The notes under the pieces: generated by a model
Seen by the model: only the letters and a program-made list of their open reading frames with translations
Database searches by the model: none
What the model was told of the DNA's origin: nothing
Position numbers and translations under genes: made by a program
Shown here: piece after piece, positions 7,691 to 59,625 of the stretch
Position numbering within the stretch: position 1 is the stretch's first letter
Layout: every line of letters begins with the position of its first letter
DNA from: Methylobacterium organophilum
Lineage (GTDB): Bacteria > Pseudomonadota > Alphaproteobacteria > Rhizobiales > Beijerinckiaceae
Reading direction: 5' to 3'
Length of the DNA stretch: 64,000 nucleotides
Assembly: GCF_022179465.1 (NCBI RefSeq)
Contig: NZ_BPQV01000004.1
Location: 248,001 to 312,000 of the forward strand

Positions 7691-8368
7691 TCACGCCTGC
7701 GTGGCCGTCTCCGGCCCCAGGGCGGCGAGGATCGCCGCGCCGGCCACGGGCGTGGCGGGCGGCCAGACCGTCCAGCGCGCCGGCCGGGCGATCGCCTCGG
7801 CGAGGCGGCGCTTGTAGACGTGGCGCGGCACCTCCTCGACGCCGAACTGGCTGAGATGGTCGGTGAGGAACTGGGTGTCGGCGAGGCGGTAGCCGCCGGC
7901 GCGCAGCCGGGCGACGAGATGCACGAGGGCGACCTTCGAGGCATCCCGCGCCTCGTGGAACATGCTCTCGCCGAAGAAGGCGGCGCCCAGCGAGACGCCG
8001 TAGAGGCCGCCCACCAACCGGCCGCCGGCATAGACCTCGACGGTGTGGCAATGGCCGAGATCGAACAGGGCCCCGTAGAGCGCCCGGATGCGGCCGTTGA
8101 TCCAGGTCCGGGCGGTGTCGCGGCGCGGGGCGGCGCAGCCGTCGATCACCGCCTCGAAGTCGCGATCGGAGACCACCTCGAACACGTCGGAGCGCACGGT
8201 GCGGGCGAGGCGGCGCGGCACGTGGAAACGGTCGAGGGGCAGCACGCCCCGGGCCCGCGGCTCGACCCAGTAGATGGTCGGGTCGTCCGCATCCTCCGCC
8301 ATCGGGAAGATGCCCGCGGCATAGGCCTTCAGCAGGATCTCGGGCGTGATGTCCAACGGGGTGTCCAA
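7691..8368 (-). CDS. aat: Leucyl/phenylalanyl-tRNA--protein transferase
   Basis: This enzyme transfers Leu or Phe from aminoacyl-tRNA to N-terminal Arg or Lys of proteins, marking them for ClpS/ClpAP (N-degron pathway, cytosol). Family signatures are complete: [91 protein letters not shown] and [13 protein letters not shown]. The start is uncertain. TTG at 8368 gives about 225 residues, close to family length. An upstream ATG at 8437 would add 23 unconserved residues, and no site has a good Shine-Dalgarno. It lies tail to tail with the TetR gene (8 bp apart) and appears monocistronic. Confidence 0.93.
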
Positions 8369-8605
8369 GCGGGACCGACAGGGCGTCCCGTTGTGGCGCT
8401 TGCGCGATCCCGACGCCAGAGGGCAGGGGCCATCCACAGGCGCCGGAGGCCGTCGGGGCCGGGCGGGGGGAGAACCCGACGCCAGCCCCCTTGCCGCCTC
8501 CGACGGTTAAGCTATCTCCCTCGGGCCTGAACCCCCATCAAGGTGAGGCAGCGACTTGGGGCGCACCGGAAACGGCGCGCCTCCCTTCGTTTCGGGCTCC
8601 TTTTC

Positions 8606-9178
8606 TCACGGCTCCGGGACGGCGGAGGCCGCCTTGGGCGCCGAAGCCGGCTTCGGGGCGGCCTTGGCCGGCTTCGGAGCGGCGGAAGCGGGGGCTTCGG
8701 AGGCCGGCACCATCGCCGCCTGCTGGTTCACGTCCGGCACCCGGGTCCAGGTCTGCGAGCCGCACAGGACCTTGAGCAGGCAGCCCTGGACGCTGAGCTC
8801 GGCCTCGCTCTCGCGCTCCAGGCTGACCTGGTACATCTTGCCTTCCTCGGCGTTGTAGATCTCGCCGGAGAACTTCTCGTCCTCGGGGGCGAGCTTGTCG
8901 AGGAGCGTGAGCCCGATCACCGGGCGGCCGCGCTTCGTCGGGTCGGGATTCTTGATGTCGGTGCGCGGCGTGCCGGCGGGGGAATTCGGCGACTTCAGCC
9001 ACACCACCTTGCCGCAGGCATGGGCCGCGTTCGGGCCGCAGCGGTCGATGCGGATCTTCGCGCGACCGTCCTCGGTGAGCCAGGTGCCGCTCGGATCCTT
9101 CGGCGCCGCGACGGCGGCGGTGGTGCCGAGCGAGGCGGCCAGCACGGAGAACAGCACGGGGAGGCGGGCGAAACGCAT
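8606..9178 (-). CDS. DUF2147 family exported protein
   Basis: A 190-residue protein with a signal peptide ([18 protein letters not shown], cleavage near AVAA). The DUF2147 beta-barrel core follows: [67 protein letters not shown] with a typical GxxYxxxxGK pattern, and [20 protein letters not shown]. The C-terminal 45 residues are Ala/Pro/Lys-rich repeats ([19 protein letters not shown]), probably a cell-wall-spanning or flexible tail. ATG 9178 is preceded by AAGGAGACTCC, an excellent ribosome binding site, so the longer upstream frame is rejected. Function unknown; it is divergent from ndk. Confidence 0.85.
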
Positions 9179-9328
9179 AACGGAGTCTCCTTGGCTCGGC
9201 CTGGGGGCAGGCGGTGCGGGAAGGGGGGCAGGCGCGTCGTCGTGTCGTCGCGCACAGGACATCGCCGCAATCGGGCGAATTTTCGGCAGTGTGGCGCAGA
9301 AGCCATGGCACCGCTTCCGCCCGGCCGG

Positions 9329-9357
9329 TTGAGGCGGCGGGATCGCGCCGCTATAAG
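9329..9357 (+). promoter_or_regulatory. Probable sigma70 promoter of ndk
   Basis: TTGAGG at 9329-9334 and TATAAG at 9352-9357 are separated by exactly 17 bp, giving a near-consensus housekeeping promoter. Transcription would start about 52 nt before the ndk ATG. Confidence 0.6.
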
Positions 9358-9416
9358 CCCGCCGCGACAGCCGTTTTCGGCTCTCTCCATCTCTTCAGAA
9401 AAAAGTCGGGACGATC

Positions 9417-9839
9417 ATGGCGACCGAGCGCACCTTCTCCATCCTCAAGCCCGACGCCACCCGGCGGAACCTGACGGGCGCGGTCAACGCGGTCATCGAG
9501 AAGGCGGGCCTGCGCATCGTCGGCCAGCGCCGCATCCGCATGAGCCGCGCGCAGGCGGAGAAGTTCTACGAGGTCCACAAGGAGCGCCCGTTCTTCGGCG
9601 AGCTCGTGGAGTTCATGACCTCCGGCCCGGTCGTGGTGCAGGTGCTCGAGGGCGAGAACGCCGTGGCCAAGTACCGTGAGGTGATGGGCGCGACGAACCC
9701 GGCCCAGGCCGCCGAGGGCACCATCCGCAAGCTCTTCGCGGAATCCGTCGGCGAGAACACCGTGCACGGCTCGGACAGCGCCGAGAACGCGCAGATCGAG
9801 ATCGCCCAGTTCTTCACGGATGCCGACATCGCCGGCTGA
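9417..9839 (+). CDS. ndk: Nucleoside diphosphate kinase
   Basis: A 140-residue cytosolic enzyme that transfers the gamma phosphate between nucleoside tri- and diphosphates through a phosphohistidine. The protein begins [18 protein letters not shown]. It contains the [19 protein letters not shown] segment and the active-site histidine in [13 protein letters not shown] near residue 117. Length is exactly that of bacterial tetrameric or hexameric Ndk. A strong promoter-like TTGAGG/TATAAG pair lies 60-90 nt upstream; the Shine-Dalgarno is weak (CGGGA). It is next to a small lipoprotein gene and purN/purM, consistent with a nucleotide-metabolism neighbourhood. Confidence 0.97.
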
Positions 9840-9975
9840 TCCGGCCCGCGCGGCGGTCCGGCGACGGGCCGCCCGCATTCGCTGAATCGGTGTGTCTCCG
9901 GCGCCATTGCGCCGGACTCACCGCGGCCCGAAGGAAGGTTCGTTTCCGAATCTCCTTTGCGGACAAATCACCCCC

Positions 9976-10359
9976 ATGCGCTCCAGCCTTCCGCGCACAG
10001 CCCGGCTCCTCCTCGGCGCCGGCCTCCTCTCCCTGCTCGCCGCCTGCAATGCCGGCAAGTCGGTCCCGACCGCGAACGCCTCCCTCGAAGGCTACACGCC
10101 GGATCCGGCGCTGAAGACCGCGCCGAAGAGCAACCTGGTCGCCCGCGTGCAGAACGCCTGCACCATCGTCCAGGGCCGCCAGCAGAAGGTCGAGCCGGCC
10201 GCCCTCGCCGCCCCCTGCGGCTGCTACGCCAAGCAGACCGTGCGCGCGATGACCCCGGCGGAGATCGCCGCCTACCGCAGCACCGGCTACTTCAACGACA
10301 CCGCCACCGCGAAGGCCTACGAGGCGCTCGACGCCTGCAAGCTGCCGCGTCCGGTCTGA
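9976..10359 (+). CDS. Small lipoprotein of unknown function
   Basis: A 127-residue protein with a type II signal peptide: MRSSLPRTARLLLGAGLLSL followed by the lipobox LAAC, so Cys 24 would be lipidated. The mature part has three more cysteines in a pattern NACTIVQGR..APCGCYAKQTVRAM, then the motif EIAAYRSTGYFNDTATAKAYEALDACKL. The regular helix-like spacing of cysteines suggests disulphides in the periplasm. ATG 9976 is chosen because it puts the signal peptide at the N-terminus. It sits between ndk and the convergent purN gene and ends at a strong hairpin. I do not recognise a named family. Confidence 0.7.
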   Translation: MRSSLPRTARLLLGAGLLSLLAACNAGKSVPTANASLEGYTPDPALKTAPKSNLVARVQNACTIVQGRQQKVEPAALAAPCGCYAKQTVRAMTPAEIAAYRSTGYFNDTATAKAYEALDACKLPRPV

Positions 10360-10371
10360 TCACGGGAACAG

Positions 10372-10405
10372 GGCCGCGCCGGCGCCCGAGGCGCCCGGCG
10401 CGGCC
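10372..10405. terminator. Bidirectional hairpin between lipoprotein gene and purN
   Basis: A GC-only inverted repeat (GGCCGCGCCGGCGCC paired with GGCGCCCGGCGCGGCC, one-base bulge, 3-nt loop) lies between two convergent genes. No T-run follows on either side, so termination is inferred from position and stem strength. Confidence 0.5.
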
Positions 10406-10408
10406 GGA

Positions 10409-11071
10409 TCAGAGCGAGAGGAGGGCGCCCTCGGCGCCCTTCGTGCCGTCCGAGAACACCACACGCCCCCCGTCGAGGCGCACCTTGCCCTCGGCGATGA
10501 GACGCAGGGCGGCGGGATAGAGCCGGTGCTCCTGCACCAGGATCCGGCCGGCCAGGGCGTCGGCATCGTCCCCCGGCAGCACCGGCACCGCGGCCTGCGC
10601 GATGATCGGCCCCGCATCGAGCTCCGGCACCACGTAATGCACCGTGCAGCCATGCAGCCGCACCCCGGCGGCGAGCGCCTGCTCGTGGGTGTGGGTGCCG
10701 CGGAACAGCGGCAGCAGGGAGGGGTGGATGTTGATCATCCGGCCCGCCCAGGCCTCGACGAAGCCGTCGGTCAGGATGCGCATGAAGCCGGCGAGGCAGA
10801 CCAGATCGACCTGCGCCGCCCGCAATGCCGCATCCAGCGCCGCGTCGAAGGCGGCGCGGCTGCCATAGGCCCGGTGGTCGAGGGCGCGGGCCGGCAGGCC
10901 GGCCTGCCGCGCCCGGTCGAGCCCCCCGGCCTCGGGCCGGTTCGACAGCACCAGCACGATCTCGACGGGAAAATCCGGCGCCGCCGCGGCCTCGATCAGC
11001 GAGACCATGTTGGAGCCGCGCCCCGAGATCAGGATCGCGACGCGCAGGGGCCGGCCCGGGGCGGCGCTCAC
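10409..11071 (-). CDS. purN: Phosphoribosylglycinamide formyltransferase
   Basis: This enzyme catalyses the third step of de novo purine synthesis, moving a formyl group from 10-formyl-THF to GAR. The 220-residue product starts with GTG and has the Rossmann-like [14 protein letters not shown] near residue 10, [24 protein letters not shown], the catalytic [20 protein letters not shown] segment (Asn and His) and [13 protein letters not shown] (Asp). Its GTG start overlaps the purM stop in GTGA, so the two are translationally coupled as in most proteobacteria. It ends facing the lipoprotein gene. Confidence 0.96.
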
Positions 11072-12135
11072 AGGGCGAGGGACCCGGTGAAGGTGACGGG
11101 CTGGGCCCCGCGGGGGGTGATCCGGCCGAGCCGCACCGGCGCCTCGCCGGCGGCGGCGAGGGCGTCGCAGACCGCCTCCGCCGCGTCGGCATCGGCCACC
11201 ACGACCATGCCGATGCCGCAGTTGAAGGTGCGCAGCATCTCCGCCTCCGCCACGCCGCCCTCGCGGGCGAGCCAGCCGAAGACCGGCGGCACGGCGACCG
11301 CGTCGAGATCGACCTCGATGCCGACGCCCTCGGGCAGGACCCGGGGCAGGTTGTCGGGGAAGCCGCCGCCGGTGATGTGGGCCAGCGCCTTGATGCCGCC
11401 CGCCTGCTTCAGGGCGGCGAGCAGCGGTTTCACGTAGATCCGGGTCGGGGCGAGCAGGGCCTCGCCGAGGCTCTTGCCCGGGGCAAAGGGGGCGGGGGCG
11501 TCGTAGCCGAGCCCGGCGCGCTCGACGATGCGGCGCACCAGCGAGAAGCCGTTCGAATGCACGCCGGAGGAGGGCAGGCCGATCGCCACGTCGCCCGGGG
11601 CGATGCCCGGCCGCGGCAGCAGCGTGCCGCGCTCGGCCGCGCCGACGGCGAAGCCGGCGAGGTCGTAATCGGCGCCGTCGTAGAGGCCGGGCATCTCCGC
11701 GGTCTCGCCGCCGATCAGGGCGCAGCCCGCCTGCCGGCAGCCCTCGGCGATGCCGCGCACGATGTCGGCGCCGACGCCCGGCACCAGCTTGGCCGTCGCG
11801 TAATAGTCGAGGAAGAACAGGGGCTCGGCGCCCTGGACGATGATGTCGTTCACGCACATCGCCACGAGGTCGATGCCGATCGTGTCGTGGCGCCCGGTCA
11901 GGATGGCGATCTTCACCTTGGTGCCGACGCCGTCATTGGCGGCGACCAGGATCGGGTCCTTGAAGCCCGCCGCCTTGAGGTCGAACAGGCCGCCGAAGCC
12001 GCCGATCTCCGCATCCGCGCCCGGCCGGCGCGTGGACCGCACCAGCGGCTTGATCGTCTCGACCATCGCGTTGCCGGCATCGATGTCGACGCCCGCCTGC
12101 GCGTAGGTCAGCCCCGTCCCGTCCTGCGCCGTCAT
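11068..12135 (-). CDS. purM: Phosphoribosylformylglycinamidine cyclo-ligase (AIR synthetase)
   Basis: The 355-residue enzyme uses ATP to close the imidazole ring of AIR, step five of purine synthesis. Visible features are [18 protein letters not shown] near the N-terminus, [36 protein letters not shown] (metal/ATP binding), [52 protein letters not shown] and [13 protein letters not shown] 12135 begins [13 protein letters not shown]; an earlier in-frame ATG at 12207 adds unconserved residues. It overlaps purN by 4 nt and diverges from the AI-2E permease gene across about 250 bp. Confidence 0.97.
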
Positions 12136-58213: not shown

Positions 58214-58531
58214 TTTTCTGCGCGCCGCAAGGGGTCGGAGCGATCGCCGGCGCCCTCCATGTCCCGGCAGCGCCTGCCTATTCGCCCAGTGGAGCGGCGC
58301 GTGATCGGGTGTGACGCAGCACCTAACTTCCGTTCAGGCTCGTGCATGACATTCGTGTCGGCAAAACACCGCCGACACCAAGACGAACAAGAGAAAAACA
58401 GATAAATTTTTAAGTAACGAACCGGAAACGATCTTCGCATCCGACAGAACAGCGAAGAGAAACGCTTCCGTAATAGATACAGCTTATCAGACAAGCACAG
58501 ACCAGACGCACCCTATTCGAAGGAGCCGTAC
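58214..58531. other. AT-rich leader region upstream of the duplicated peptide genes
   Basis: About 320 bp without a gene and clearly AT-richer than anything else in the window from 58320 on (for example GATAAATTTTTAAG near 58399). It contains an 8-bp perfect inverted repeat GTGTCGGC/GCCGACAC at 58355-58378. TAATAG and TTATCA -10-like words occur near 58472-58488. The promoter and possibly a 5' regulatory leader of the peptide genes must lie here. Confidence 0.5.
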
Positions 58532-58795
58532 ATGTCTCAGGAAACCTATCCGCTCGACGATGCCGCCCTGGACGCCGTGTCCGCCGCCGGCGGACACTGG
58601 GTCGTCAATGCCAAGGGCATCGGACAGTGGCACTACAACGACGTCGTCGCCTCGGGGAACAACGTCAAGTGCGCGGCTTCGGGCGAGAGCGGCTCCAGCT
58701 CCGTGCGATCCGAGATCCGCGGCAACCAGCGGTACGTGTTCGGCTACGACACCGCCAAGGGCGGAGAGTACCTCAAGGGTATCCGCCCGGTCTGA
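58532..58795 (+). CDS. Putative double-glycine leader peptide precursor, copy 1
   Basis: An 87-residue protein of no family I recognise. The N-terminus SQETYPLDDAALDAVSAAGG looks like a double-glycine bacteriocin/RiPP leader (pattern L-x-D-x-x-L-D-x-V-x-x-x-G-G). Cleavage after Gly 21 would release a 66-residue product. The predicted product is polar, with HWVVNAKGIGQWHYNDVVAS, a single Cys (NNVKCAASGESGSSSVRSEI), and a Tyr/Gly-rich end (YVFGYDTAKGGEYLKGIRPV). GAAGGAG lies seven bases before the ATG. No peptidase-ABC transporter, immunity or modification gene is in the window. An intracellular small protein remains possible. Confidence 0.7.
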   Translation: MSQETYPLDDAALDAVSAAGGHWVVNAKGIGQWHYNDVVASGNNVKCAASGESGSSSVRSEIRGNQRYVFGYDTAKGGEYLKGIRPV

Positions 58796-58876
58796 CCGAT
58801 CACCCCTCGGATCGGCGAACCGGACTCTTCCTCCAACGAACATCCCCCAACCGAAGATCAGTCAAAGGAGATCATC

Positions 58877-59140
58877 ATGTCCCAGGAAACCTACCCGCTC
58901 GACGATGCCGCCCTGGACGCCGTGTCCGCCGCCGGCGGCCACTGGGTCGTCAATGCCAAGGGCATCGGACAGTGGCACTACAACGACGTCGTCGCCTCGG
59001 GGAACAACGTCAAGTGCGCGGCTTCGGGCGAGAGCGGCTCCAGCTCCGTGCGATCCGAGATCCGCGGCAACCAGCGGTACGTGTTCGGCTACGACACCGC
59101 CAAGGGCGGAGAGTACCTCAAGGGTGTCCGCCCGGTCTGA
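58877..59140 (+). CDS. Putative double-glycine leader peptide precursor, copy 2
   Basis: This copy is 98.5% identical in DNA (260 of 264 bases) and differs from copy 1 by one residue, Ile 84 to Val. The four differences are at gene positions 6, 18, 63 and 250; the 186 bases between the last two are identical. Its own ribosome site AAAGGAG precedes the ATG, in a spacer (58796-58876) unrelated to the sequence before copy 1. It is therefore a second complete gene, probably on the same message. The same leader/core reading applies as for copy 1. Confidence 0.7.
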   Translation: MSQETYPLDDAALDAVSAAGGHWVVNAKGIGQWHYNDVVASGNNVKCAASGESGSSSVRSEIRGNQRYVFGYDTAKGGEYLKGVRPV

Positions 59141-59253: not shown

Positions 59254-59625
59254 GTGATGCGTAGGGTACCGGTCGCCGTCCTGTTGCTGCTGTCCGTCTC
59301 GGCCGCCGCCGCGCGCGATCACGGCTGCAGCGACAGGACCCAGAAGGGCAAGGTCGCCCAGGCAAGCTCGCACTACAGCAAGTCCTACCTGGACGAGCAT
59401 CTCGCGGTGCGCGGCAACGGGGATTGCCTGGTCGCCAAGCCGGCCGACAGGCTGACGCGGGGCTATACTACCAACACGGGAAGTTACGTCCTGCCGCATT
59501 ACTCCACCAATCCGGGCGGCGACCCGCCCGGCGCGTCCCAGGGCGGCTTCATGCCCGGCATGGCCTCGGGGGGCCTGCGCAACGAGGGCAATCCCTTCGT
59601 CGGAACCCTGGGCACCCGCCGCTGA
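59254..59625 (+). CDS. Small exported protein, unknown function
   Basis: A 123-residue protein with a signal peptide (MRRVPVAVLLLLSVSAAAA). The mature part has two cysteines (HGCSDRTQKGKVAQASSHYS and VRGNGDCLVAKPADRLTRGY) and a Gly/Pro/Asn-rich, probably extended C-terminus (YSTNPGGDPPGASQGGFMPG). GTG 59254 is placed nine bases after AGGAGGG; ATG 59257 is the adjacent alternative. It follows the duplicated peptide genes on the same strand, behind a hairpin. No family recognised. Confidence 0.65.
   Translation: MMRRVPVAVLLLLSVSAAAARDHGCSDRTQKGKVAQASSHYSKSYLDEHLAVRGNGDCLVAKPADRLTRGYTTNTGSYVLPHYSTNPGGDPPGASQGGFMPGMASGGLRNEGNPFVGTLGTRR

Follow-up and report, generated by a model that had tools for sequence, protein, structure and literature searches.

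Short-leader peptide genes in tandem in a Methylobacterium genome as candidate cargo of an NHLM-class C39 exporter

Two nearly identical genes of 87 codons stand in tandem within a stretch of 64,000 nucleotides (the window; G000:C4:248001-312000) of a Methylobacterium/Methylorubrum genome of 5.06 Mb in 113 contigs. They probably encode the precursors of a small secreted protein, which would be cut and exported, its core unmodified, by an NHLM-class exporter encoded on another contig (C5). Each precursor is read as a short leader of class II type, about 19 residues long, preceding a polar core. A first-pass annotation of the window had proposed a new family of exported peptides in alphaproteobacteria. 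The new family holds, but the broad spread does not, as profile searches show a narrow distribution; the genes are read as a new cargo family of limited spread, belonging to a class of exporter that is already known.

Both reading frames claimed by that annotation are present on the forward strand, and the ribosome sites it reported lie upstream of the respective ATGs (Table 1). Four of 264 bases distinguish the copies and cause a single amino-acid change (Ile84/Val84), so the tandem copy is either recent or has been kept alike by conversion. The GC content per codon position of copy 1 (0.61/0.49/0.86) is coding-like. The pattern L-x4-L-x2-[VI]-x1-3-GG within the first 40 residues is found in two of the 212 small ORFs (40-130 aa) of the window, namely copies 1 and 2, while 20 third-order Markov windows used as a control, with 423-481 such ORFs each, yielded two motif-bearing ORFs in total. 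Both copies are real genes, since homologues preserve the reading frame as well as the leader. Among named homologues, the closest come from a Methylorubrum populi MAG (62% identity) and from M. zatmanii (66%).

Table 1. Features of the tandem gene pair, in window positions
Feature	Position	Strand	Basis
AT-rich region 5′ of copy 1	58301..58531	+	lowest GC of the 64 kb
Ribosome-binding site, copy 1	58520..58525	+	AAGGAG read in sequence
Precursor gene, copy 1 (87 codons)	58532..58795	+	ORF and homologues
Putative leader, copy 1, residues 1-19 by register (1-21 if cut past GG)	58532..58588	+	L8/L13/V16
Putative core, copy 1, residues 20-87 (GGHW...), polar, one Cys	58589..58792	+	
Spacer of 81 bases separating copies 1 and 2	58796..58876	+	
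Ribosome-binding site, copy 2	58864..58872	+	AAAGGAGAT read in sequence
Precursor gene, copy 2 (87 codons)	58877..59140	+	ORF; 4 bases differ from copy 1
Putative leader, copy 2, residues 1-19	58877..58933	+	as for copy 1
Putative core, copy 2, residues 20-87	58934..59137	+	

The AT-rich character claimed for the upstream region is borne out. All nine of the lowest-GC 120-base segments (n=3194) begin at 58301-58461, with a GC content of 0.41-0.54 against a mean of 0.72 over all 3194. The promoter of copy 1 is probably located in this region, where a promoter scan upstream of copy 1 returned 0 sigma-70-like matches. Downstream, a protein of 123 residues that by eye appears to carry a signal peptide is encoded at 59254-59625 on the forward strand, beginning 114 bases past copy 2; it has no family over cut-off and no match among the related loci compared.

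The window type of the peptide (type A) is found in the window genome, in the M. populi MAG (L006; G270:C10) and in M. zatmanii (L007; G803). L006 and L007 are mutually syntenic. The window matches them over the gene alone, with one distant 66-base match in L007; as the flanks hold no other matches, the window genes occupy a different genomic place. A secure relative, type C, is present in two genomes of another genus (G233 and G321). The cores of types A and C align with an hhalign E of 5.6e-7 (probability 92%), and on an A-core model both C cores score above 2000 of 2000 shuffles. These comparisons place types A and C securely in one family. A second, degraded copy of type C, interrupted by an in-frame stop close to its start, lies away from the exporter on the reverse strand of L044 (1442-1700; G321:C39), a contig omitted from every count.

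Type B comprises a further gene with a GG leader in the window genome, its third (G000:C6:84478-84711; L045 8479-8712, forward strand), with the leader LDDAALDAV and a shorter core, and relatives in G239 (two), G803, G270, G818, G370, G384 and G331. Types A and B have the leader in common, and both share a layout that runs from GHW/GYW through SVR to a WD or D late in the sequence. Homology between the two cores is nonetheless weak, at an hhalign E of 0.0098 and a probability of 4%. Pairwise shuffles of the C6 core give p values of 0.001-0.008 against type A and 0.38-0.68 against type C; an A+C model on the B cores is reached by 0-256 of 2000 shuffles and a B model on the A cores by 0-392 of 2000. 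Core homology between types B and C is unsupported in the profile comparison. Type D, from G245, ties to type B (0/2000 shuffles). On these scores, types B and D are probable distant members of the family. The E-type peptides of G829 and G825 adjoin exporters and have a similar layout; since homology of their cores is unsupported, they are not counted in the family.

Across the taxonomic family, strong matches to profile A2 were found in 4 of 398 genomes, and the wider profile A5 gave nine credible carriers in two genera from the same 398 (10 genomes at E <= 0.01, one dropped). Within the order (397 genomes), profile A3 convincingly matched the window genome alone, with four genomes at E <= 0.02. 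Matches at E of about 0.0015-0.05 in the genome searches with A2, A3 and A5, mostly in frames that greatly exceed the family in length, were left uncounted; the exception, kept after inspection, is the C6 gene (E 0.0076, A2 search). A literature search covering titles and the starts of abstracts, with most subscription journals outside its scope, gave no description of the family among the papers listed, and the main text of a paper on the M. mesophilicum secretome contains neither NHLM nor NHLP (PMC10673610).

The rule for C39 leaders, as outlined in two reports, calls for hydrophobic residues at -12, -7 and -4 and for GG, GA or GS at -2/-1 (PMC6363468, PMC10885120). The C39-type leader claimed for the window genes is supported, with L8, L13 and V16 at these three positions when counted from a cut after Ala19. 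All 18 tabulated sequences, which include two of E type and one truncated at a contig end, fit L-x4-L-x2-[VIA] and have hydrophobics at -12, -7 and -4 throughout. The in-register -2/-1 pair is G-G or G-A in 14 of the 14 sequences not of window type. It is Ala-Ala in all four of window type, with G-G two residues downstream.

Cleavage at Gly 21, as first predicted, likewise falls outside the canonical register, and both the register and the relatives favour a cut after Ala19. A cut at Ala19 has the right register and the wrong residue at -2; at Gly21 the residues are right and the register is wrong. Types A and C align gap-free across the site, the GG of type C opposite the AA of type A. Seven of nine type B sequences have a second GG before [HY]W, a few residues after the in-register pair. 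From the alignment with type C and this second GG, the pair taken by the first-pass annotation as the cleavage motif is attributed to the core (GGHW). The balance leans towards processing after Ala19, with GGHW opening the core.

The cores of type A are polar and positive, with a gravy of -0.52 to -0.63 and a charge of +2.1 to +2.9. The product had been described as polar with one Cys. Its polarity is confirmed, but no importance can be given to the Cys: neither of the two closest homologues has it, and in three distant relatives a single Cys stands at another position. A structure model of copy 1 has a helix at residues 10-17 and strands thereafter, at a low-confidence pLDDT of 45.7 that is too poor for a fold search. 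For the members scanned, no family of Pfam or NCBIfam is over cut-off, and weaker matches below cut-off occur. Examples of those left unused are CTB family bacteriocin (0.022, in 2 of 15 members), Bacteriocin_IIc (0.081) and Lactococcin (0.12). A match of the C6 paralogue to Ntox6 (E 0.00058; 19.9 bits, cut-off 25; 50 of 279 positions), missing in the other nine proteins scanned, was rejected as chance, as were matches to Neocarzinostatin chains (E 0.45-0.54). A plasmid origin of the window type was rejected on the lack of a match in plasmids, and a viral one on 526 pattern matches in viral contigs with 0 relatives among them.

The proposal that the exporter is encoded elsewhere agrees with a fitting NHLM-type C39 exporter on contig C5, one of two loci in the window genome with a C39 match over cut-off. 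It is a full NHLM set, with TIGR03794, TIGR03796 and TIGR03797 all over cut-off; the bit scores (cut-offs in brackets) are 960 (853) for the first ABC protein, 811 (709) for the second and 229 (156) for HlyD. Its C39 domain has Cys28, His101 and Asp117 of the site. A motif scan and inspection of the intergenic gaps in a 20 kb stretch gave no GG precursor near it. A Nif11 or NHLP precursor was rejected as its cargo, with no match in the genome at E 0.1 (TIGR03793, TIGR03798), and the 87-residue protein itself matches no NHLP or Nif11 leader domain in NCBIfam. The second locus, on contig C3 (L018; 5621-5839 on the reverse strand, 7974-8195 and 8408-11828 on the forward strand), has a C39 ABC gene and a HlyD-like gene, and is flanked by two glycine-rich GG peptides of 72-73 residues. 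As no GG precursor was seen around the C5 exporter, no Nif11 or NHLP candidate was found and the C3 locus has its own peptides, the best candidate cargo found for C5 consists of the window genes together with the C6 gene. The C3 locus resembles a Cdz-type bacteriocin locus, and one of its peptides matches Bacteriocin_IIc below cut-off.

A link between peptide and exporter is also seen among 100 congeners, of which 16 have TIGR03796 over cut-off; lesser ABC-protein matches occur in all 100. Profile A3 at E 0.01 found six genomes in the same set (G000, G239, G245, G270, G803 and G818), and all six are among the 16, which bears out co-occurrence with a C39 exporter. The hypergeometric probability is 6.7e-6 for the six carriers and 0.0035 for the three of A type, values uncorrected for relatedness and with the window genome part of the profile. 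Ten of the 16 exporter-bearing congeners are without an A3 match, which counts against the link.

A member of the family stands beside the exporter in nine of the 11 carrier genomes found, the exceptions being the window genome and G270. Type C genes are convergent with the second ABC gene at 129 bp and 130 bp (G233 and G321), type B genes lie 51-919 bp from exporter genes in G239, G818, G803, G384, G331 and G370, and the type D gene is 1540 bp from a gene in the HlyD position, named by position and without a score. On the plasmid CBMB27-p2 of M. phyllosphaerae, a type B gene with 71% identity to the C6 gene follows, after 1459 bp, a gene annotated as an NHLP bacteriocin export ABC subunit. 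A gene of window type adjoins the exporter in none of its three carrier genomes, which again counts against the link, as does the fact that most cases of adjacency come from types B and D, with their weak core homology to the window type. For G370, G384, G331 and G321, identification of the exporter relied on motifs, gene order and place in the tree, not on TIGR03796 scores.

A tree of 25 C39-ABC proteins, built by a quick method with SH-aLRT as its only support and with long branches flagged, groups the exporters of the 11 carriers (the window genome among them) in a branch of 15 (support 95). It also holds the exporters of two genomes that have E-type peptides and of two that have other peptides. 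A separate branch (support 99) is formed by seven further NHLM exporters; near four of these are other GG peptides, of LNPQPLPP type in L078, L082 and L083 and Nif11-like (by eye) in L080. Such exporters have competing cargo in other GG peptides and in Nif11-like ones in G233 and G245, the latter below cut-off.

It is proposed that the leader helix, of C39 type and about 19 residues, would be recognised by the C5 exporter, made up of a HlyD-like adaptor, a C39 peptidase/ABC subunit and a second ABC subunit. The peptidase would remove the leader, and an unmodified polar core of about 66-68 residues would pass through the HlyD-type adaptor and then an outer-membrane channel. Within the cargo family, the window genes would form a branch that has been separated from the exporter and duplicated in tandem; the remaining branches adjoin that exporter in related genomes.

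The peptides might instead be cargo of the C3 exporter, which is in the same genome and whose neighbouring peptides have similar leaders (L-x4-L-x2-V, then GGG); G270 likewise carries both exporters. This is judged improbable, as the C3 exporter already has peptides adjoining it and, at 473 bits, falls short of the NHLM cut-off (853), and the relatives of the window genes adjoin the NHLM type in nine of 11 carrier genomes. Little credence is likewise given to the idea, raised with the leader in the first-pass annotation, that these are precursors of modified peptides (RiPPs), here with the enzyme encoded elsewhere. Modified NHLP and Nif11 peptides are linked to NHLM exporters, and enzymes and precursors are at times encoded far apart, Methylobacterium included (PMC2887384). 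This reading is disfavoured by cores that are conserved rather than variable, by a Cys that is not conserved and by the neighbours of the exporters: as the annotation had noted for the window, neither a modification enzyme nor an immunity gene was recognised in its flanks or among the selected neighbour proteins scanned at the window and exporter loci.

Very unlikely is a cytoplasmic protein with a merely leader-like N-terminus. The in-register Ala-Ala of the window type, its separation from the exporter and a leader-like stretch conserved to the same degree as the remainder would suit it. The same N-terminus nevertheless occurs in exporter-adjacent relatives, 14 of 18 sequences have G-G or G-A in register, and peptide and exporter co-occur among the 100 congeners. 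Export by the C5 exporter remains the preferred reading.

NHLM exporters are defined through NHLP and Nif11 precursors. The present system has the same three-gene exporter as these (N11P) systems, but the window leader has about 20 residues and neither domain, and no modification enzyme was recognised nearby. Already known are the NHLM exporter and precursors distant from the machinery, including in Methylobacterium (Haft et al. 2010, PMC2887384). Apparently new are a conserved, seemingly unmodified short-leader cargo family associated with a single exporter clade and the shift between Ala-Ala and Gly-Gly in the window type. Class II bacteriocins and microcins with double-glycine leaders share the short -12/-7/-4 leader, the C39 exporter and the lack of a recognised modification enzyme; they differ from the window type, in which G-G/G-A/G-S is out of register and no immunity gene is recognised in the flanks. 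The Cdz bacteriocins of Caulobacter (PMC5380434) are likewise small alphaproteobacterial proteins with an N-terminal leader and type I export (putative here). In contrast to these glycine-zipper bacteriocins, the window core is polar (gravy -0.54) with no glycine zipper by eye, and the Cdz-like candidate of this genome is the C3 locus, not the window genes.

By analogy with class II microcins, a role in antagonism between bacteria is tentatively placed ahead of signalling or a surface role. More doubtful is a wider proposal, that NHLM exporters of methylotrophs serve dispersed, small, conserved, unmodified secreted proteins from several loci per exporter, and that one branch moved its site from Gly-Gly to Ala-Ala, with GG now at the mature N-terminus (GGHW). 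If true, a change in C39 site use would be traceable inside one cargo family. An exporter of plant-associated bacteria that has no visible neighbour peptide gains a concrete and testable candidate cargo, and natural relatives that differ in having Ala-Ala or Gly-Gly allow the site rule of C39 peptidases to be tested.

Other genes were observed at the exporter loci. Very short GG-leader peptides with the common core start GGLNPQPLPP are encoded at L078 5159-5422, L082 7002-7145 and L083 4957-5136. The exporter locus of G384 (L104 2566-11558) has five small GG/GA-leader genes, a glycine-rich one of which precedes the HlyD gene. Beta-lactamase-family (PF00144) proteins are near the exporter in three genomes (L103 11577-12788, L069 5814-7025 and L072 6827-8146), and Lnb_N-like proteins are just over cut-off in L069 and just below in L103. 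A subtilase (S8 family), possibly a second processing protease, is encoded close to the exporter in G239 (L070 690-4097, an autotransporter) and on the M. phyllosphaerae plasmid (L106 7579-11229).
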